Shown: positions 1 to 23,073 of the stretch, one piece after another
Layout of the letters: each line of letters starts with the position of its first letter
Position numbering within the stretch: position 1 is the stretch's first letter
NCBI RefSeq assembly: GCF_023015865.1
Contig: NZ_JALKBC010000001.1
Coordinates: 558,001-622,000, forward strand
DNA: 64,000 nt
Origin: Arenibacter sp. F26102
Lineage (GTDB): Bacteria > Bacteroidota > Bacteroidia > Flavobacteriales > Flavobacteriaceae
Direction: 5' to 3'
The notes under the pieces: generated by a model
What the model was told of the DNA's origin: nothing
The model's database searches: none
Seen by the model: only the letters and a program-made list of their open reading frames with translations
Program-made: the position numbers and the translations under genes

Positions 1-3000
1 TCTAGCGTGTTTAACAAAGATATTAGTTCATGGAATGTGGCCAATGTGGCCAACATGGCCACTATGTTTTCTAGAGCTTGGGCATTTAATCAGAATATAG
101 GAACTTGGAAAGTAGGCAATGTAACCGATATGAGTAGCATGTTCTCTTATGCATTCTCTTTCAATAAGAGCCTGAGTACTTGGAACGTGGGTAAGGTTAC
201 AAACATGTCCAATACCTTCCAATATGCCACATCTTTTAATCAGGACCTGGCCAATTGGAATGTTGCTAATGTGACTAGTATGTCTGTGATGTTTTCAGGG
301 GCATCTTCTTTCAATCAGGATATCAGCAATTGGGATGTAAGCAAGGTAACTGATATGACCGCTATGTTTCAAAATACCGGCAATTTTAATCAGGATATTG
401 GTGATTGGGACGTAAACAACGTAACCAATATGCAATTTATGTTTTTAAGTGCTAAAGCCTTTAATCAGGATATCAGCAGATGGAATGTAGGTAAGGTAAC
501 GGATATGAATAGCATGTTCCTAAATGCATCGGTCTTCGATCAGAATATTGGGACGTGGAATGTGAGCAATGTTACCGATATGACGGATATGTTTAAGGAT
601 ATTAAACTATCCACAGAAAATTATGATGGCCTATTAAGCGGTTGGAGTGCTTTAGCCTTACAGAATGGGGTTGCTTTTGGTGGTGGAAACAGTACGCATT
701 GTGCTAGCACCACCGAGCGTCAGAAGTTAATCGATGATTTTGGCTGGACCATTACTGACGGAGGCGAGGATTGTTCGGAAACCTATTTTATCACCACTTG
801 GGAAACCACAGCCAGTAATGAGTCCATTACCATCCCCACCGGAGATGGTGCCTTTTCATATACCGTGGATTGGGGAGATGGTACAACGGACAATACCGTA
901 TATACCGGGAATGCGAGCCATACCTATGTTGTTCCTGGGATACATACCGTAAAAATCAGTGGTCAATTCCCACATTTGAAATTTACATGGATACCATATG
1001 CAAAGTATCTACGGTCAGTAGAACAATGGGGAGACCAAGTTTGGGGCTCTATGGAAAGTAGTTTTGCTTATTGTGAGAATTTGGTTTTCAATGCAATGGA
1101 TACCCCAGATCTTTCTCAGGTAACCAGCATGCATAGGATGTTCAGTGGTGCTATTTCCTTCAACGAAGACCTTAGTGGCTGGGATGTCAGCAATGTGACC
1201 GATATGTCCTCTATGTTCACAAGGGCAGCCTCCTTTAACCAAGATATTGGTAATTGGAATGTGAGTAAGGTGACCGATATGAGTAGTATGTTTAGTGATG
1301 CTTCTTCCTTCAATCAGGATATTGGTGGATGGGATGTGTCCAATGTCACCAATATGATAGGGATGTTTTCTTCAGCAGAATCTTTTAATGGGGATATTGG
1401 AAATTGGGATATGTCCAATGTCACCAATATGAGAGTGATGTTTTATGGTGCAACAGCATTCAATCAGGATATTGGTGGATTGGATGTGTCCAATGTTACC
1501 AATATGCAAGCGATGTTTTTTTCAGCAGAATCTTTTAATGGGGATATTGGAAATTGGGATGTGTCCAATGTCATCAATATGAGAGAGATGTTTTATGGTG
1601 CAACAGCATTCAATCAGGATATTGGTGGATGGGATGTGTCCAATGTAACTGATATGAGATCGATGTTCTATGAGGCAACTTCCTTTGATCAAAACATAGG
1701 TTCTTGGGATGTTAGTAATGTTGGTATATACAATGATCCTATGATGGGATATACAATCAGCTATATGGATGATATGTTTAAAAACGCGGGATTGTCCATA
1801 GCTAATTATGATAAGCTATTGCAAGGTTGGAGTGGTTTGTCCCTACAGTCTGGGGTTACTTTTGATGCAGGCAGCAGCAAGTACTGCGACGGCAGCACTG
1901 CACGACAAAAAATTATTGATGATTTTGGCTGGACCATTACTGACGGAGGAGAGGATTGTTCGGAAGCCTATTTTATCACCACCTGGCAAACGGAAGCCAA
2001 TGATGAGGAAATTACCATCCCTTCTGGGTCTGGTGCTTTTAGCTATACGGTAGACTGGGGAGATGGGACTACGGATACTACCGTATATACGGGTCCAGCC
2101 AGCCATACTTTTAGTACTCCTAGTGTCTACGCAATAAAAATCAACGGGGACTTTCCACATTTTAGAATGGCAAGTGGCCCAATGAAGGACAAGTTGCTTT
2201 CTGTAGAGCAATGGGGATCTCAGGTCTGGGGGGCTATGGAAAGTAGTTTTGCCGGTTGTACTAATTTGGTGATCAATGCTACGGATGTGCCAGACCTGTC
2301 GCAAGTAACCAGTATGAAAGGGATGTTTTCCGGGGCGTCTTCCTTCAATCAAGATATTAATAATTGGAATGTCAGTAATGTAACGGATATGTCCAATTTG
2401 TTTGATGGTGCCACTGCATTTAACCTGGATCTTAGTGCGTGGCAGATAGGTAATGTGACCAATATGTTTCAGATGTATAGAAATACCAATTTTAATCAGG
2501 ACATCGGTGGTTGGGATGTTGCTAATGTGAGCAATATGTCCAGAATGTTTGAGGATGCAAAGGTATTTAATCAGGATATCGGTCTATGGGCGGTAAGCAA
2601 GGTCACCAATATGGAAGGCATGTTTCTTAACGCTACCACATTTAATCAGGATATCAGTGGTTGGGATGTTGCTCAGGTGACTGATATGAGCTCTATGTTT
2701 TATGAGGCCAAAGCGTTTAATCAGAATATCGGATTGTGGAAAGTTGGAAACGTTACTAATATGAAGTTAATGTTTTATGGTGCCAACTCCTTCAATATGG
2801 ATATAAGCACGTGGGAGGTATATAATGTAACCGATATGTCAAATATGTTCAGAAACGCAAGGTCCTTTAATCAGGATATTAGTGTATGGGATGTTAGTAG
2901 TGTAATGAATATGTCCGATATGTTCAATGGTGCAACAGCATTCGATCAGCCTATCGGAAATTGGAATGTAAGTAATGTGACCAATATGTTTCAGATGTTT

Positions 3001-5607
3001 AGAGATACCAATTTTAATCAGGACATCGGTGGTTGGGATGTAAGCAATGTGACCAATATGCAATATATGTTTATGAGGGCTGGAGATTTTAATCAGGACG
3101 TCAGCGAATGGGATGTAGCGAACGTTACCACTATGACGGGTATTTTTTATAGCGCATTGGCATTCGATCAGAATATTGGGGCGTGGAATGTGAGCAGTGT
3201 TACCGATATGACGGATATGTTTAAGGATATTAAACTATCCACAGAAAATTATGATGGTCTATTAAGCGGTTGGAGTGCTTTAAACTTACAGAATGGGGTT
3301 GTTTTTGGTGGAGGAAACAGTACGTATTGCGCCAGTACCATAGCGCGTCAGAAGTTGATCGATGATTTTGGCTGGACCATTACCGATGGAGGGGAAGAAT
3401 GCCCATTACTTCCATTTGTCACTACCTGGAAAACAGATAATACGGGGAAGACGGATGTCAATAGCATTGAAATTCCCACCGGTGATGGAACCTTTGCCTA
3501 TACCGTGGATTGGGGCGACGGTTCTACGGACAACACAATATACACCGGGAACGCAGCCCATACCTATGCTGCGCCAGGTACTTATACGGTAAGCATCAGT
3601 GGCGATTTTCCACACTTTAAATTTTCTACTAGTCAAGAAGATAATAAAAAGCTATTGTCCGTGGAACAGTGGGGAAGCCAAGTATGGGAATCTATGGATA
3701 GTAGTTTCAATGCCTGTAGCAATCTAGTTATCAATGCTACTGATGTCCCTGATCTTTCACAGGTGCAAAGTATGTCAAAAATGTTCTCGTCAGCACTTAC
3801 TTTTAATCAGGACATTAGTGGTTGGGACGTATCCAATGTAACCAATATGGATTCAATGTTCGCAACCGCAAGAAGTTTTAATCAAGATATAAGTGTTTGG
3901 GATGTTAGTAATGTAACCAATATGGACAGGTTGTTTTATTCTGCCCGTGTTTTTAACCAAGATATTGGTGTGTGGAACACAAGTAATGTCACTACTATGA
4001 AAGCTATGTTCGAAGGAGCCTACATTTTTAATCAGGATATAGGTGATTGGGATGTAAGTAGCGTGACCGACATGCGTTGGATGTTTCAAGCAGCTCTTGA
4101 CTTTGATCAAGATATTAGTAGGTGGAATGTAGAGCAAGTAACCTCTATGTTATCAATGTTTCAACAGGCAAGAAGTTTTAATCAAGATATTAGCGGTTGG
4201 GATCTTTCCAATGTTACCGATACAAGAAATATGTTTCTTTCTGCTTCTACATTTAACCAAGATTTGAGTACTTGGGATGTAAGTAAGGTAACGGATATGG
4301 ATAGGATGTTTCAAGAAGCAAGTTCTTTTAATCAAGATATTAGTGGTTGGGACGTTTCTAAGGTTACCGATACATATGGCATGTTTTTTCTTGCTACATC
4401 TTTTGACCAAGATTTAGGAAATTGGGATGTCAGTAATGTAAAAGAAATGTCAAGAATGTTCGAAGATGCTGGATTATCAACAGAAAATTATGACAAAACA
4501 TTGATTGGTTGGAGTGGGTTAGGTTTACAGAACAATGTTTCATTTCACGCGGGTAATAGTAGCTACTGTGATGGAGCAATCGCACGACAGAAAATTATAG
4601 ATGATTTCGGGTGGACCATTACCGATGCCGGACTGTTTTGTAATGCTGATGCTGACAATGATGGTGTGAACGATAATGTAGATGCCTGTCCTAACACTCC
4701 AACTGGGGAAGCGGTAGATGCCAACGGTTGTTCCGATAGTCAAAAAGACAGCGACGGAGACGGGGTTATGGATGATAAGGACCAATGTCCCAACACCCCT
4801 GCAGGAGAAACCGTAGATGCCAACGGTTGTTCCGATAGTCAAAAAGACAGCGACGGAGACGGGGTTATGGATGATAAGGACCAATGTCCCAACACCCCTG
4901 CAGGAGAAACCGTAGATGCCAACGGTTGTTCGGATAGCCAAAAGGATGCCGATGAAGATGGGGTTGTCAATGATCTAGACCTTTGTCCAAAAACTCCTGC
5001 CGGGGAAGCCGTGGATGCGGAAGGCTGTTCCGATAGCCAGAAGGACAGTGATTTTGACGGAGTAAACGATGCCCAGGACCTATGTCCGGATTCTCCGGAA
5101 GACGAGTCCGTGGATGATAATGGATGTGCCGATAGTCAAAAAGATACCGATAATGATGGTGTCATGGACAATGTGGATACTTGTTCCAATACCCCTGCCG
5201 GGGAAACGGCCGATGCCAATGGTTGTTCCGATAGCCAAAAAGATGGTGATGATTCTGGCGATGATTCTGGAGATGGAACGGATAACGGCGACGGTGATGG
5301 TGAGACTGGCGGAGAAGATGATGCCAATACATTAAAAGTGTCCCAAGCCTTTACGCCAAACGGCGATGGGGTAAACGATACCTGGACGATCTACGGTATA
5401 GAGAATTATCCCAATTCCATAGTGCGTGTCTTTAACAGCTGGGGCAAAGAGGTGTTCGCTGCCAAGAACTACCAGAACAATTGGGACGGACACTACAAAG
5501 ACCTGAGCAGTGGACTTCCAGATGGAGGTTCCTATTACTACCAGGTAGACCTTGAAGGAGACGGCCGCGTTGATATGGACGGATGGCTATTTTTGGCCAA
5601 ACAATAA
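1..5607 (+). CDS. Giant BspA/DUF285-repeat surface protein with T9SS type B sorting domain (5' end outside window)
   Basis: The frame is open from base 1, so the start and signal peptide lie upstream; 1868 codons are visible. Four blocks of about 25-residue repeats of the DUF285/BspA type (pattern [20 protein letters not shown]) lie near bases 1-600, 1100-1790, 2290-3230 and 3750-4480. Each block ends in a conserved linker (ENYDxxLxGWSxL, then [14 protein letters not shown]). The first three linkers lead into a PKD-like module ([12 protein letters not shown]). Six 33-residue acidic thrombospondin type 3-like calcium-binding repeats follow (bases about 4640-5260). The last ~90 residues match the gliding-motility-associated C-terminal domain ([12 protein letters not shown]), the T9SS type B signal. 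I infer an exported adhesin-like cell-surface protein; its ligand is unknown. The PorP/SprF-family gene 31 bp downstream is its likely secretion partner. Confidence 0.9.
1321..1620 (+). repeat. 150-bp tandem duplication inside the DUF285 repeats
   Basis: Bases 1321-1470 and 1471-1620 are near-identical in register, each covering two 25-residue repeats, with a few substitutions. This is a recent in-frame expansion of two repeat units, much closer to each other than to the rest of the array. Confidence 0.85.
4714..4931 (+). repeat. 99-bp tandem repeat in the thrombospondin type 3 region
   Basis: Bases 4714-4832 reappear identically at 4813-4931, a 99-bp (33-codon) period. The repeat encodes one calcium-binding unit beginning [10 protein letters not shown]. 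Slippage or recombination here would change unit number in frame. Confidence 0.9.
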
Positions 5608-20836: not shown

Positions 20837-21190
20837 TTGTATGATAATTTTTTTGGTATGAACAAATTCTTCCTTAATAGTTTAGTGGTTTTATTAAACC
20901 TTGGAGGCGTTTCTTTTTGGTCCTGGTACAGGTCTAATAATCTAAATTCTGATATTGAACGGCTTGTAGAAAATACGGAATTTAGAACGTTCAATACCAT
21001 TGCAAACACGATATCGCTCAACTATATATCTATTCTGAACTATTTTATAAACAGGAGTACAAATGCATCGGCGGAATCATTCAATGCAAAAATAAAAGCA
21101 TTCAGGGCACAGTTCAGAGGTATGAAGAATGTAGAATTCTTCCTTAATAGATTGACGACAATATTTGCAAAACGTAACAATTGTTCTTGA
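20837..21190 (+). pseudogene. C-terminal remnant of an ISL3/IS1001-type DDE transposase
   Basis: The open frame encodes the end of an ISL3-like transposase (NYFINRSTNASAESFNAK, IKAFRAQFRG, FFLNRLTTIFA), with the last catalytic Glu in SAESFN. The real homology runs only from about 20950 to 21180; upstream residues do not look like transposase, and the catalytic core and N-terminus are missing. A 16-bp direct repeat (AATTCTTCCTTAATAG) occurs at 20865-20880 and 21135-21150. This is a decayed insertion-sequence fragment beside the tRNA/GIY-YIG locus. Confidence 0.75.
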
Positions 21191-21215
21191 TCCGTTATTT
21201 AGAATAAGGTTGAAA

Positions 21216-21250
21216 TAAAAAACCCTGCGAACGTAGATTCACAGGGTTTA
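21216..21250 (-). terminator. Terminator of the tRNA-Leu transcript
   Basis: On the minus strand a perfect 8-bp stem (AAACCCTG/CAGGGTTT) is followed by a T-rich tail, 8 nt beyond the tRNA 3' end. It closes the minus-strand cassette-tRNA transcript. Confidence 0.85.
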
Positions 21251-21257
21251 TTTGTTG

Positions 21258-21338
21258 TACTCGAGGTGGGAATCGAACCCACACTCCAAAGGAACTGGAT
21301 TTTGAATCCAGCGCGTCTACCAATTCCGCCACTCGAGC
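21258..21338 (-). tRNA. tRNA-Leu (anticodon CAA)
   Basis: An 81-nt cloverleaf. The acceptor stem is GCTCGAG/CTCGAGT with one G-T pair, the D-arm includes GGTAGAC, and the anticodon arm CTGGA-TTCAAAA-TCCAG presents CAA, reading UUG codons. It has a class II variable arm and the T-arm GTGGG-TTCGATT-CCCAC. CCA is not encoded. The apparent promoter lies 660 bp upstream, beyond two GIY-YIG cassettes, each followed by a copy of the first 24 nt of this gene. Confidence 0.95.
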
Positions 21339-21339
21339 A
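21315..21339 (-). repeat. 25-bp direct repeat, copy 1 (5' end of the intact tRNA-Leu)
   Basis: Minus strand T plus the first 24 nt of tRNA-Leu (ending GGAATTGGTAGAC). The same 25 bp recur exactly at 21636-21660 and 21957-21981, at a constant 321-bp period. Confidence 0.95.
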
Positions 21340-21348
21340 AGGTAACTA

Positions 21349-21594
21349 TTAATTATTTTTCAATTTTCTCAGTTGTTCTTTTCCAACACCTGATTTCCAA
21401 TATTTTTCTCTTTTCCTACCTTCGGCCCAATTCTCACAACGTTCTGTGAAGATCAATTCGAAGGGTCGGTATGGTTTGGTCGTTTTTTCTCTGCCACTAT
21501 TATGTCTTGCTACCCTTGCCTCCAAATCCGTCGTCATTCCTACGTAAATGTAGTTGTTAGTCAAGCTAGATAAGGCGTAAACCCAAACCATCAT
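21349..21594 (-). CDS. GIY-YIG nuclease family protein, cassette copy proximal to the tRNA
   Basis: An 81-residue UPF0213-type GIY-YIG domain. WVYALSS and YIYVGMTTDL are the two core motifs, followed by Arg (EARVARHNSG) and the presumed metal-binding Glu in EGRKREKYWK. There is no DNA-recognition domain. It differs from the second copy by V28 instead of I and E58 instead of K. The start ATG follows directly on a tRNA-like leader. In the 321-bp repeat this gene fills most of a 296-bp cassette. Catalytic activity and any homing role are inference. Confidence 0.85.
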   Translation of the reverse strand: MMVWVYALSSLTNNYIYVGMTTDLEARVARHNSGREKTTKPYRPFELIFTERCENWAEGRKREKYWKSGVGKEQLRKLKNN

Positions 21595-21616
21595 TCAAAA
21601 TTTCAATCCGAGCGCG

Positions 21617-21636
21617 CCTGCCTCTCGGCAGACAGG
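21617..21636. repeat. REP-like palindrome in cassette 1 (one arm mutated)
   Basis: A hairpin of 8-bp arms around TCGG (plus strand CCTGCCTC/CAGACAGG). The G-to-C change at 21624 breaks the innermost pair compared with the second copy. It sits exactly between the tRNA-derived 24 nt and the GCGC sequence that would continue the tRNA. Confidence 0.75.
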
Positions 21637-21660
21637 TCTACCAATTCCGCCACTCGAGCA
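21636..21660 (-). repeat. 25-bp direct repeat, copy 2 (isolated tRNA-Leu 5' fragment)
   Basis: Identical to the 5' end of the intact tRNA-Leu, then running into the REP-like palindrome instead of the anticodon arm. It separates the two GIY-YIG cassettes and cannot form a tRNA. Confidence 0.95.
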
Positions 21661-21669
21661 AGGTAACTA

Positions 21670-21915
21670 TTAATTATTTTTCAATTTTCTCAGTTGTTCT
21701 TTTCCAACACCTGATTTCCAATATTTTTCTCTTTTCCTACCTTTGGCCCAATTCTCACAACGTTCTGTGAAGATCAATTCGAAGGGTCGGTATGGTTTGG
21801 TCGTTTTTTCTCTGCCACTATTATGTCTTGCTATCCTTGCCTCCAAATCCGTCGTCATTCCTACGTATATGTAGTTGTTAGTCAAGCTAGATAAGGCGTA
21901 AACCCAAACCATCAT
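21670..21915 (-). CDS. GIY-YIG nuclease family protein, cassette copy proximal to the promoter
   Basis: An 81-residue near-duplicate of the neighbouring GIY-YIG gene, exactly 321 bp away. Four bases differ across the 321-bp unit, two of them changing residues (I28, K58). The GIY-YIG core is intact (VYALSS, YIYVG, conserved Arg, and Glu in KGRKREKYWK). On its transcript it follows a tRNA-Leu 5' fragment, a hairpin and a short tRNA-like stretch. Both copies remaining open argues for recent duplication, selection, or both. Confidence 0.85.
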   Translation of the reverse strand: MMVWVYALSSLTNNYIYVGMTTDLEARIARHNSGREKTTKPYRPFELIFTERCENWAKGRKREKYWKSGVGKEQLRKLKNN

Positions 21916-21937
21916 TCAAAATTTCAATCCGAGCGCG

Positions 21938-21957
21938 CCTGCCTGTCGGCAGACAGG
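21938..21957. repeat. REP-like palindrome in cassette 2
   Basis: A 20-bp hairpin with arms CCTGCCTG and CAGACAGG (one G-T pair) around TCGG. It lies between the tRNA-derived 24 nt and a GCGC sequence resembling the next part of tRNA-Leu. Confidence 0.8.
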
Positions 21958-21981
21958 TCTACCAATTCCGCCACTCGAGCA
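21957..21981 (-). repeat. 25-bp direct repeat, copy 3 (outer tRNA-Leu 5' fragment next to the promoter)
   Basis: A third exact copy of the tRNA-Leu 5' end. Homology to the array stops immediately upstream, so this is the outer boundary. The promoter lies 17 nt further upstream, where a tRNA promoter is expected. Confidence 0.95.
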
Positions 21982-21997
21982 TTTTTGATTGCGACTG

Positions 21998-22030
21998 CAA
22001 AATTAAAGAATATTTTCTTTACTTCAGCAA
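21998..22030 (-). promoter_or_regulatory. Promoter of the tRNA-Leu/GIY-YIG array
   Basis: On the minus strand TTG (22028-22030) and TAATTTTG (21998-22005) are separated by 22 nt, a full match to the Bacteroidota TTG / TAnnTTTG promoter. It lies 17 nt before the outer tRNA 5' fragment. I see no other TAnnTTTG box between here and the intact tRNA. Confidence 0.75.
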
Positions 22031-22072
22031 AAAAATAACAACATTATTACTTTAGCAACCCAAATTAATTTC

Positions 22073-22080
22073 TAAATTTG
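22073..22080 (+). promoter_or_regulatory. -7 box of the prs-rplY operon
   Basis: TAAATTTG matches TAnnTTTG exactly, 51 bp before the prs ATG, and lies over the upstream non-ATG start that would otherwise extend the frame. Confidence 0.6.
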
Positions 22081-22131
22081 CACCTCCTTATAAAAAGGAG
22101 TTCCAATAAACTAATAAACAATACGTTAACA

Positions 22132-23073
22132 ATGCCATATCAAGTACCGGAGCCTAAAATTTTTACCTGTACCCAAAGTACAAAGCTATCTGAAAAAATA
22201 GCGGAGTCTTTTGGTTCTAACTTAGGCAATGTTATTTTTTCTAGATACAGCGATGGGGAGTTTCAGCCTTCCTTTGAAGAATCTATACGTGGAATGCGCG
22301 TGTTTATTATTGGTTCTACCAATCCTAGTTCGGAGAATTTGATGGAAATGCTGTTGATGTTGGATGCTGCAAAAAGGGCGTCTGCAAGGCACATAACCGC
22401 AGTAATGCCGTATTTTGGATGGGCCAGACAGGATAGAAAGGACAAACCTAGGGTTCCAATTGCAGCTAAGTTAGTAGCCAAAATGTTGGAAGCTGCAGGT
22501 GCCACCCGAATCATTACTATGGATCTGCATGCCGATCAAATTCAAGGATTTTTTGAAAAGCCGGTAGATCATTTGTTCGCTTCCACTTTGTTTTTGCCCT
22601 ATTTGAATAGCCTTAATTTAAGCAACCTTACCATAGCCTCACCGGATATGGGAGGATCTAAAAGGGCCTATGCCTATTCCAAGGCACTTAGTTGCGATGT
22701 AGTTATATGTTACAAACAAAGAGCACAAGCCAATGTAATTTCGCACATGGAACTTATAGGTGACGTACAAGGGAAGAATGTGGTTCTGGTAGATGATATG
22801 GTGGATACGGCAGGGACTTTGACAAAAGCGGCCGATTTAATGATGGAGAGGGGAGCCTTAAGTGTTAGGGCAATTACTACCCACGCACTTCTTTCAGGGG
22901 ATGCATATGAGAAAATTGAAAAATCTCAATTATCCGAGCTTATTGTAACAGATTCCATACCTCTAAAAAAGGAAGGCAAAAAAATAAGGGTTATAAGCTG
23001 TGCGGAGTTGTTTGCCGATGTAATGCACAGAGTGCATCACAATACTTCCATTAGTTCCAAGTTTCTAATGTAG
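22132..23073 (+). CDS. prs: Ribose-phosphate pyrophosphokinase
   Basis: A 313-residue enzyme making PRPP from ribose 5-phosphate and ATP for nucleotide, His and Trp synthesis. Family motifs: SRYSDGEFQP, GSTNPSSENLMEML, the ATP-binding FGWARQDRK (about 95-103), the metal-binding DLHADQIQGFF (131-141) and the PRPP loop VLVDDMVDTAGT (about 215-226). The frame could extend upstream to 22078, but the conserved sequence starts at ATG 22132 and a -7 box covers the upstream start. rplY follows 46 bp on, probably co-transcribed. Confidence 0.96.
   Translation: MPYQVPEPKIFTCTQSTKLSEKIAESFGSNLGNVIFSRYSDGEFQPSFEESIRGMRVFIIGSTNPSSENLMEMLLMLDAAKRASARHITAVMPYFGWARQDRKDKPRVPIAAKLVAKMLEAAGATRIITMDLHADQIQGFFEKPVDHLFASTLFLPYLNSLNLSNLTIASPDMGGSKRAYAYSKALSCDVVICYKQRAQANVISHMELIGDVQGKNVVLVDDMVDTAGTLTKAADLMMERGALSVRAITTHALLSGDAYEKIEKSQLSELIVTDSIPLKKEGKKIRVISCAELFADVMHRVHHNTSISSKFLM

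Follow-up and report, generated by a model that had tools for sequence, protein, structure and literature searches.

Endonuclease genes that replace part of the gene they enter are known from fungal mitochondria: in Allomyces macrogynus (atp6) and Glomus (atp6, atp9, cox2 and nad3), so-called mORFs are reported to consist of an endonuclease open reading frame (ORF) in an essential gene that brings a copy of the gene end, sometimes a foreign one, with expression of the resulting hybrid gene and displacement of the native end (PMC3630166). In T-even phages, SegB is a free-standing GIY-YIG homing endonuclease that is encoded beside tRNA genes and cuts within them, and T6 escape mutants carry tandem repeats of a 718-bp unit comprising tRNA-Tyr and segB, with microhomology between the tRNA 5' end and the segB 3' end (PMC13096335). 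A GIY-YIG gene is also carried by the Tsy transposon, for whose transposition it is reportedly not essential (PMC10293859). Here we analyze a 64,000-nucleotide (nt) stretch (below, the window) of Arenibacter sp. F26102, contig NZ_JALKBC010000001.1, positions 558,001 to 622,000, in which two cassettes, each with a small GIY-YIG gene, stand in tandem before a tRNA-Leu(CAA) gene. Given this array and some two hundred similar cassettes obtained from sequence comparisons, we consider, with a probability of about 0.78, that these are minimal homing-type mobile cassettes dedicated to tRNA genes.

A tandem-repeat scan of the window identified the array at 21315–21981, with a period of 321, 2.1 copies and 98% match. 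Along the minus strand, the native upstream flank is followed by two successive units, each comprising displaced tRNA-Leu nt 1–24, a palindrome and a GIY-YIG gene, and, after the second gene, by a 10-bp gap, the intact tRNA-Leu(CAA) gene and a terminator-like hairpin (Table 1). The three 25-bp copies are identical, each formed by 24 nt of the tRNA and one upstream base. Comparison of the two 321-bp units shows exactly four base differences, both 81-codon ORFs are open, and their proteins differ at two residues (V28I and E58K). The original prediction, made from the sequence alone, had described just such units between three tRNA 5' copies, with four base differences, two residue changes and both genes open, and is confirmed in each of these details; the palindrome after each displaced tRNA start was no part of that description.

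The tRNA-Leu(CAA) pattern has one match in the window's genome, which has 39 tRNA matches, and one in each of 17 congeners; therefore, the gene looks single-copy. Upstream of it, the window and the empty site of the congener G005 are identical at 286 of 300 positions, and the alignment is continuous through tRNA nt 24, where it jumps. The extra DNA from the first to the last 24-mer copy is 642 bp in the window and 321 bp in G003; that is, two units are present in the window's genome, one in G003 and none in G005. Junctions of the same kind are observed at Arg(TCG) in two comparisons (upstream identity 234/299 and 268/299, downstream 128/216 and 127/131) and at Pro(GGG) (upstream 218/291, downstream 154/240). 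Among 18 Arenibacter genomes, the tRNA-Leu(CAA) site is occupied in four. Six (G001, G002, G007, G013, G016 and G017) retain a remnant of the ORF 3' end that scores above all 200 shuffles, in G001 only just (42 against 40). G011, where 9 of 200 shuffles reach the remnant score, holds by eye a displaced half without an ORF. No remnant is seen in six genomes (G004, G005, G006, G008, G009 and G012), and in G010 the site ends at the contig edge. As judged from these alignments, an empty allele and an insertion at a precise point, defined by the upstream junction, are present, as in a homing element. The original prediction of a mobile or self-duplicating cassette proposed a check for empty sites in close relatives and for a variable cassette number; both were found, together with scarred sites, and the array is not shared by all relatives.

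The cassettes occur in two mirror forms. In the 5' form, a displaced tRNA 5' half is followed by the ORF and the intact tRNA; in the 3' form, the intact tRNA is followed by the ORF and a displaced 3' half. A first search for relatives matched 32 of 60 genomes at E <= 1e-3, and a family search with an alignment of 14 tRNA-linked proteins (A1) matched 88 of 149 genomes at E <= 1e-12; together with the fetched stretches, they yielded 188 distinct ORFs in 132 clusters. Clusters scoring at least 60 number 113, in 68 genomes, and 90 of them (57 genomes, 131 units) have a tRNA gene at most 260 bp away on the same strand, with none on the opposite strand; nine more are at contig edges. Four of the 90 tRNA calls (two selenocysteine, SeC; one Stop; one unnamed) are apparent ARAGORN misreadings of displaced copies. 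Only one of 19 lower-scoring clusters is tRNA-adjacent. Two or more tandem units are present in 29 of the 90 adjacent clusters, with unit spacing of roughly 300–400 bp in most listed arrays.

A scan of named genomes with the inner-unit protein, P0001, gave 113 relatives, of which the best 80, drawn by protein similarity alone, were kept. Within this set, 77 loci have a tRNA no more than 150 bp away and on their own strand, in all cases tRNA-Leu (66 CAA, 5 TAA, 3 CAG and 3 GAG), 62 in the 5' form and 15 in the 3' form. As for the other three, the tRNA of L235 was found by Rfam, in a search that on account of length covered 15 of 20 loci, L284 stops at a contig end, and L287 has, by eye, displaced tRNA pieces only. 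These best 80 loci are mostly from Flavobacteriaceae and reach Chitinophagaceae and Melioribacteraceae, and metagenome-assembled genomes among them are labelled Spechtbacteria, Buchananbacteria, Rhodobacteraceae and Saccharospirillaceae, labels that depend on the binning of their contigs. Seven of the 80 (L229–L232, L269, L286 and L295) repeat genomes already at hand; they are excluded from the tree and from the unit counts of displaced-copy boundaries, stems and acceptor comparisons given below, and six of them (all but L295) are within the 51 Leu(CAA) loci compared. In a sample across the phylum, 72 of 158 genomes match the protein profile at E <= 1e-15, and out of 28 best-scoring newly fetched loci, again drawn by protein similarity alone, 26 are tRNA-adjacent, all on the same strand (10 in the 5' form, 16 in the 3' form); the remaining two are a locus at a contig edge and a locus without a tRNA. 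In this group, GIY-YIG genes with about 80 codons are therefore generally tied to tRNA genes, a linkage that the original prediction had proposed to look for, rather than generally unlinked to tRNA fragments.

Some individual loci deserve description in their own right. A long array at G238:C34:6988-9772 has seven listed units spaced mostly by about 365 bp. In L154, L176, L211, L215 and L287, a displaced tRNA 3' piece stands before or after the unit and no intact tRNA is seen upstream in the fetched DNA; these are truncated or inserted elsewhere. L019/L128 (G035:C6) is a tRNA-Arg(TCG) that is preceded by two 5'-type units and immediately followed by a truncated GIY-YIG gene. In L003 and L015–L019, the Arg-type ORF runs into the tRNA, or tRNA copy, that comes after it, so that tRNA sequence forms its last codons (RPRGATE). 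In L133 (G024), two GIY-YIG genes lie some 400 bp downstream of the transfer-messenger RNA (tmRNA) gene, with palindromic repeats between; given this distance, and with no displaced tmRNA piece seen, tmRNA was rejected as a further target.

The window's genome carries further units. Three tandem units with a spacing of 317 precede tRNA-Arg(TCG), contig C83 ends with one unit that adjoins tRNA-Pro(TGG), and contig C6 starts with two units of the tRNA-Pro(TGG) type, which probably form one array with the C83 unit; matching fragments at other tRNA genes, another check that the original prediction had named, are thus present in the same genome. Two more distant GIY-YIG genes of this genome, L006 and L010, have no tRNA in the fetched 1.5 kb on either side. 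As several cassettes are situated at contig ends (G003:C5, G003:C45, G000:C6, G000:C83, G035:C4 and G035:C5), copy numbers from draft genomes are lower bounds.

Most displaced copies coincide in their outer edge with the end of the tRNA. A displaced copy is found by exact match in 166 of 268 units; the other 102 are outside the boundary counts, and both boundary and stem counts can include several units of one array. Copies of the 5' type start at nt 1 in 103 of 119 cases, and those of the 3' type end at the tRNA 3' end in 40 of 47. The inner edge of Leu 5'-type copies is at nt 24 in 44 of 61, followed by the palindrome and GCGC, a pattern seen in 47 of the best 80 (of 113) named loci; Leu 3'-type copies start at nt 28–31 in 8 of 17, that is, near the 5'-type end, as would be expected for one cut site. 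For Arg, the 5'-type inner edge is at nt 22 or 35–38 in all 24 copies, and the 3'-type starts range from 15 to 33 across six copies, a poorer fit to one cut site. A strict anticodon-loop cut for all isotypes is unsupported, the inner edges varying by isotype. In Leu(CAA) 5'-type loci, the displaced nt 1–24 are identical to those of the locus's own tRNA in 25 of 51, and at positions where the own tRNA departs from the consensus, the displaced copy follows the own tRNA 76 times, the consensus 20 times and neither 16 times. The originally predicted target, a tRNA 5' half, is better described by isotype, and a 3' mirror form exists as well.

Nuclease lineages follow the tRNA isotype. We built a tree of 205 proteins with FastTree, a single quick method, in which 157 rows are labelled by isotype and 48 are unlabelled and uncounted; SeC, Stop and unnamed calls were given no label, and for L025 the label (Val, 3' form) was assigned manually. 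The isotype changes 19 times on this tree, compared to a mean of 74.5 and a minimum of 69 in 200 shuffles, and 18 times without Leu rows (shuffle mean 48.5, minimum 43). The 5'/3' form also changes 19 times (mean 42.7, minimum 34), and nine times among Leu rows alone (mean 13.9, minimum 10); outside Leu, Arg and Pro, the 3' form is the commoner one (28 vs 8 labelled rows). Therefore, the isotype is conserved along lineages in which the form has switched again and again, and, at the level of isotype, the enzyme lineage is specific for its insertion target, as in homing elements. Most unlinked small GIY-YIG genes seen here group together on the tree, in a block separate from the tRNA-linked genes.

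At a few loci, the complete tRNA and the displaced half do not match. In L239, the acceptor GCTCGAG of the displaced 5' half, at 2433, fits the 3' partner CTCGAGTAC, and the displaced 3' half starts at 2882 and ends CACCTCGAGTAC; between these native halves are the ORF, a complete tRNA-Leu with the acceptor GCCTTGG/CCAAGG (2752–2833) and a terminator-like run. This is best read as a native tRNA-Leu gene split by a cassette carrying its own tRNA. Displaced acceptors unlike that of the intact tRNA are also seen in L252, L271 and L306; alternatively, and especially in L252, where the anticodon stem looks native, the intact tRNA may have changed after insertion. Palindromes within the acceptor region, or tRNAs nearby, account for most of the other acceptor differences. 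A related GIY-YIG clade is located in protein genes, which we take to encode sugar-nucleotide dehydratases/epimerases, at GGAGF|IGS (L208 at about 2000–2400, L020, L219 and L207). In ORF orientation, the L208-type layout comprises a displaced gene start, the inverted ends ACCCGTGAAAT/ATTTCACAGGT and a complete gene with a diverged start; the right inverted end of L020 did not match the search pattern. The same rebuilding logic as at tRNAs would seem to operate here in a protein gene. In L194 (about 1971–2256, ORF orientation), nearly the same inverted ends occur within a gene, presumably a four-helix-bundle one, apparently without rebuilding.

The cassette proteins belong to the GIY-YIG nuclease superfamily by domain and predicted fold. 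P0001 and the outer-unit protein P0002 match PF01541 with 65.4 and 66.4 bits (cut-off 22.6), and in an alignment of 33 relatives Y6, Y17, G19 and R27 are invariant and H31 and E63 nearly so. The AlphaFold2 model built from these 33 relatives is a single domain (mean predicted local distance difference test score, pLDDT, 94.8). In a fold search of the PDB, the sole match at E <= 0.001 is the UPF0213 protein BH0048 (1zg2, E 1.7e-4). Next come SLX1, at E 3e-3, and the catalytic domain of I-TevI, at E 0.08 with a probability of 0.98. A sequence-profile search returned the same three kinds, and small GIY-YIG proteins of UPF0213 are thus the nearest solved relatives both by sequence (1zg2 and 1ywl) and by fold (1zg2). 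The protein is probably a DNA-cutting enzyme.

Taken together, linkage to tRNA genes, empty sites and copy-number variation support the original reading of a mobile cassette that rebuilds the tRNA, from which we infer movement and nuclease activity. In the scheme we propose, an enzyme of some 80 residues that recognizes a single tRNA isotype (tRNA-Leu in the window) would cut that tRNA gene, in the case of tRNA-Leu probably near the junction of the D stem and the anticodon stem, at about nt 24–31. Repair would copy the cassette in, and with it would come either the tRNA half that is lacking, be it 5' or 3', or an entire tRNA as a replacement. The essential tRNA would thereby be kept functional, and the displaced native half would be left as a remnant, often with palindromes. 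As an intact tRNA is regenerated, the site could be used again; this re-homing, or unequal exchange, would produce tandem arrays, and recombination between units would lead to deletion and scars. Cassettes would also be transferred between cells.

Several observations weigh against this scheme. The intact tRNA should itself be a target of the enzyme. The downstream flanks of the window and the empty site, beyond the tRNA, align poorly (139/241 over 250 bp), and therefore orthology at the tRNA-Leu site rests on the upstream flank. Fourteen of the 113 clusters are neither near an intact tRNA nor at a contig edge; in our own sorting, six of them contain fragments of a tRNA or have one at a greater distance, four are in protein genes, and four, of which all but L200 and L227 were viewed by eye, are unlinked to tRNA. 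A displaced acceptor clearly unlike that of the intact tRNA is seen at four Leu loci only (the above L239, L252, L271 and L306). Nuclease relationships inside the Leu clade do not follow the anticodon (10 changes vs a mean of 10.8 in shuffles, minimum 9), and therefore specificity stops above the anticodon level. In the structural model, the enzyme has no separate DNA-binding domain to which its isotype specificity could be ascribed. Moreover, tblastn against phages and plasmids with one Arg-type protein yielded no match, and no match was confirmed when viral contigs were scanned with two proteins, one of the Leu type and one of the Arg type; a phage, plasmid or viral vehicle was rejected, as no relatives were found with these queries.

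Selection on the gene could also be explained by a host function in tRNA maturation, tRNA control or defence, the gene being co-transcribed with the tRNA and not selfish. The ratio of nonsynonymous to synonymous substitution rates (dN/dS) is 0.09–0.19 in six Leu-type pairs and 0.06–0.09 in nine Arg-type pairs (a tenth Arg pair has no value), demonstrating purifying selection in the pairs tested, and the common strand in all 90 adjacent clusters and the isotype fidelity agree with a host gene too. Against it are the uneven distribution, a single genus including both empty and scarred sites, as well as tandem arrays, displaced tRNA halves and different complete tRNAs; moreover, neither window protein matches any PADLOC family (0 matches), on which ground a known anti-phage defence system was rejected. 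We regard a host gene as improbable.

About equally improbable, in our estimate, is that the palindromes are the mobile part, being REP-like (REP, repetitive extragenic palindrome) or moved by an enzyme acting in trans, with the GIY-YIG gene as a passenger or helper. Perfect stems of at least 8 bp occur in 52 of 164 displaced segments, compared to 5.4 in dinucleotide shuffles and two in the 164 paired intact tRNAs; for stems of at least 7 bp, the numbers are 106, 22 and 52, respectively, the last because the tRNA acceptor stem has 7 pairs. The Leu palindrome, whose perfect stem is only 6, has 11 matches at 9 places of the window's genome, two of them in this array (none for a reversed control), and some GIY-YIG genes away from tRNAs adjoin palindromic repeats. 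On the other hand, the isotype of the site follows the nuclease lineage, and like palindromes occur across isotypes. The unit contains no Y1 transposase such as that of REP systems (RAYT); a genome-wide search for one was not made. The unlinked small genes beside palindromic repeats are L006, L010, L027, L028 and L034 (repeats GTCATTGCGAGG...GCAATCT and GGTCGAGCGCAGTCGAGACC), and in L034 genes and repeats form tandem units of about 499 bp.

A more speculative possibility, to which we give a similarly small chance, is that the displaced half, chiefly its retained D arm with the palindrome before the ORF, serves as a nucleic-acid guide to the matching tRNA gene, through RNA pairing or a hairpin. 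It is suggested by the combination of a bare nuclease of about 80 residues without a DNA-binding domain and yet largely isotype-faithful lineages. Were it true, a unit of about 300 bp would be a guided mobile element, and we know of none that is smaller. However, the displaced segment of the window folds as RNA no better than shuffles (z = -0.25), by which a structured RNA leader in this window is also unsupported, and there are several loci whose displaced acceptor has ceased to match the tRNA.

It is very unlikely that the array is a standard integrase-type element with the tRNA gene as its attachment site. A tRNA target and a rebuilt tRNA are, from general knowledge, typical of such elements; against this, the 321-bp unit has a single nuclease ORF, Pfam identified no recombinase in the six flanking ORFs tested, only the ISL3 transposase fragment described below (the genome as a whole was not searched for one), both 5' and 3' forms occur, and the split is inside the tRNA. 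Least credible is a one-off local duplication of the tRNA 5' end and a neighbouring gene, with which the close similarity of the window units (4/321 bases different) would agree, as the layout recurs at many isotypes and in most of the loci surveyed (90 adjacent clusters in 57 genomes, 77 of the best 80 named loci), single-unit and empty sites exist, and relatives do not share one array by descent.

Returning to the tRNA-rebuilding cassettes in the window (Table 1), the motif TAATTTTG, read with what we take to be the Bacteroidota -7 consensus, is also found upstream of the empty tRNA-Leu gene in G005. As the flank of the empty gene now precedes the outermost displaced copy, transcription of the tRNA in the 5' form seems to depend on read-through from the native promoter. 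A sigma-70 promoter scan reported no promoter on the minus strand. An ISL3-type transposase fragment (PF01610; 20837–21190) adjoins the array, and tandem repeats of 75, 150 and 99 bp at 308–5048 probably belong to repeat proteins.

Table 1. Features of the tRNA-Leu(CAA) array (window positions).
Feature	Position	Strand	Basis
Terminator-like hairpin 3' of tRNA	21220..21249	-	Consensus scan; 1 found vs 0.8 expected in shuffles
Intact tRNA-Leu(CAA), rebuilt downstream of two cassettes	21257..21338	-	ARAGORN; Rfam RF00005, 61.5 bits
25-bp tRNA 5' copy 1 (intact tRNA start and one base)	21315..21339	-	Exact repeat
Inner-unit GIY-YIG gene, 81 aa, P0001	21349..21594	-	ORF, PF01541, AlphaFold2 model
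Inner-unit palindrome, directly after displaced tRNA nt 24; one base off outer copy	21617..21636	.	Sequence
25-bp tRNA 5' copy 2 (displaced 5' end)	21636..21660	-	Exact repeat
Outer-unit GIY-YIG gene, 81 aa, P0002	21670..21915	-	ORF, PF01541
Outer-unit palindrome CCTGTCTGCCGACAGGCAGG	21938..21957	.	Sequence
25-bp tRNA 5' copy 3, outermost displaced 5' end, joined to empty-site flank	21957..21981	-	Exact repeat; G005 comparison
TAATTTTG, resembles Bacteroidota -7 promoter element	21998..22005	-	Upstream of outermost displaced copy; sequence

If our reading is correct, these cassettes make up a large class of selfish elements of very small size (321 bp per unit in the window) that split essential tRNA genes and supply the replacement, so that the host cannot lose the element together with the tRNA, which is single-copy here. 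Such a class would account for many of the tRNA fragments and contig breaks of draft genomes and for many small GIY-YIG genes (about 80 codons), and would provide a naturally occurring collection of nucleases in which every member is dedicated to a single tRNA isotype. Two questions would also become open to test, namely by what means one catalytic domain achieves such specificity and in what way essential tRNA genes are replaced.

Compared to known systems, the cassettes are not group I introns: none is among the Rfam matches up to E = 1 in 21000–22200. Bacterial group I introns with homing endonucleases are mobile and can lie in tRNA genes (cf. PMC3984707), whereas here the tRNA is rebuilt in DNA and not by splicing. 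The likeness to SegB consists in a GIY-YIG gene next to a tRNA gene and in tandem repeat units; SegB, however, is phage-borne and has 83 mapped cleavage sites, and the passages describing it include neither a displaced tRNA half nor a rebuilt tRNA (PMC13096335). The mORFs resemble the cassettes in the displaced native end, which in the cassettes is seen by exact match in 166 of 268 units, and in the apparent supply of a replacement gene end; another origin of that end is suggested in the cassettes by the four Leu loci, whereas both copies are identical at 25 of 51 Leu(CAA) loci. The mORFs differ in residing in mitochondrial protein genes, in replacing C-terminal ends in the cases described and in being mostly LAGLIDADG, with GIY-YIG in atp9 (PMC3630166), while the cassettes are found in bacterial chromosomes and in tRNA genes, involve a 5' half, a 3' half or a whole tRNA, encode a bare GIY-YIG domain of about 80 aa, and form tandem arrays with palindromes and nuclease lineages following the tRNA isotype. 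A full-text literature search, judged by titles and the beginnings of abstracts, with preprints and most subscription journals outside its scope, retrieved, among the papers listed, no description of such a bacterial cassette. The logic of rebuilding is already known from fungal mitochondria, and the cutting of tRNA genes from phage SegB; the isotype-bound 5'/3' arrays of bacteria appear to be new and suggest a widespread, seemingly undescribed class of selfish element.

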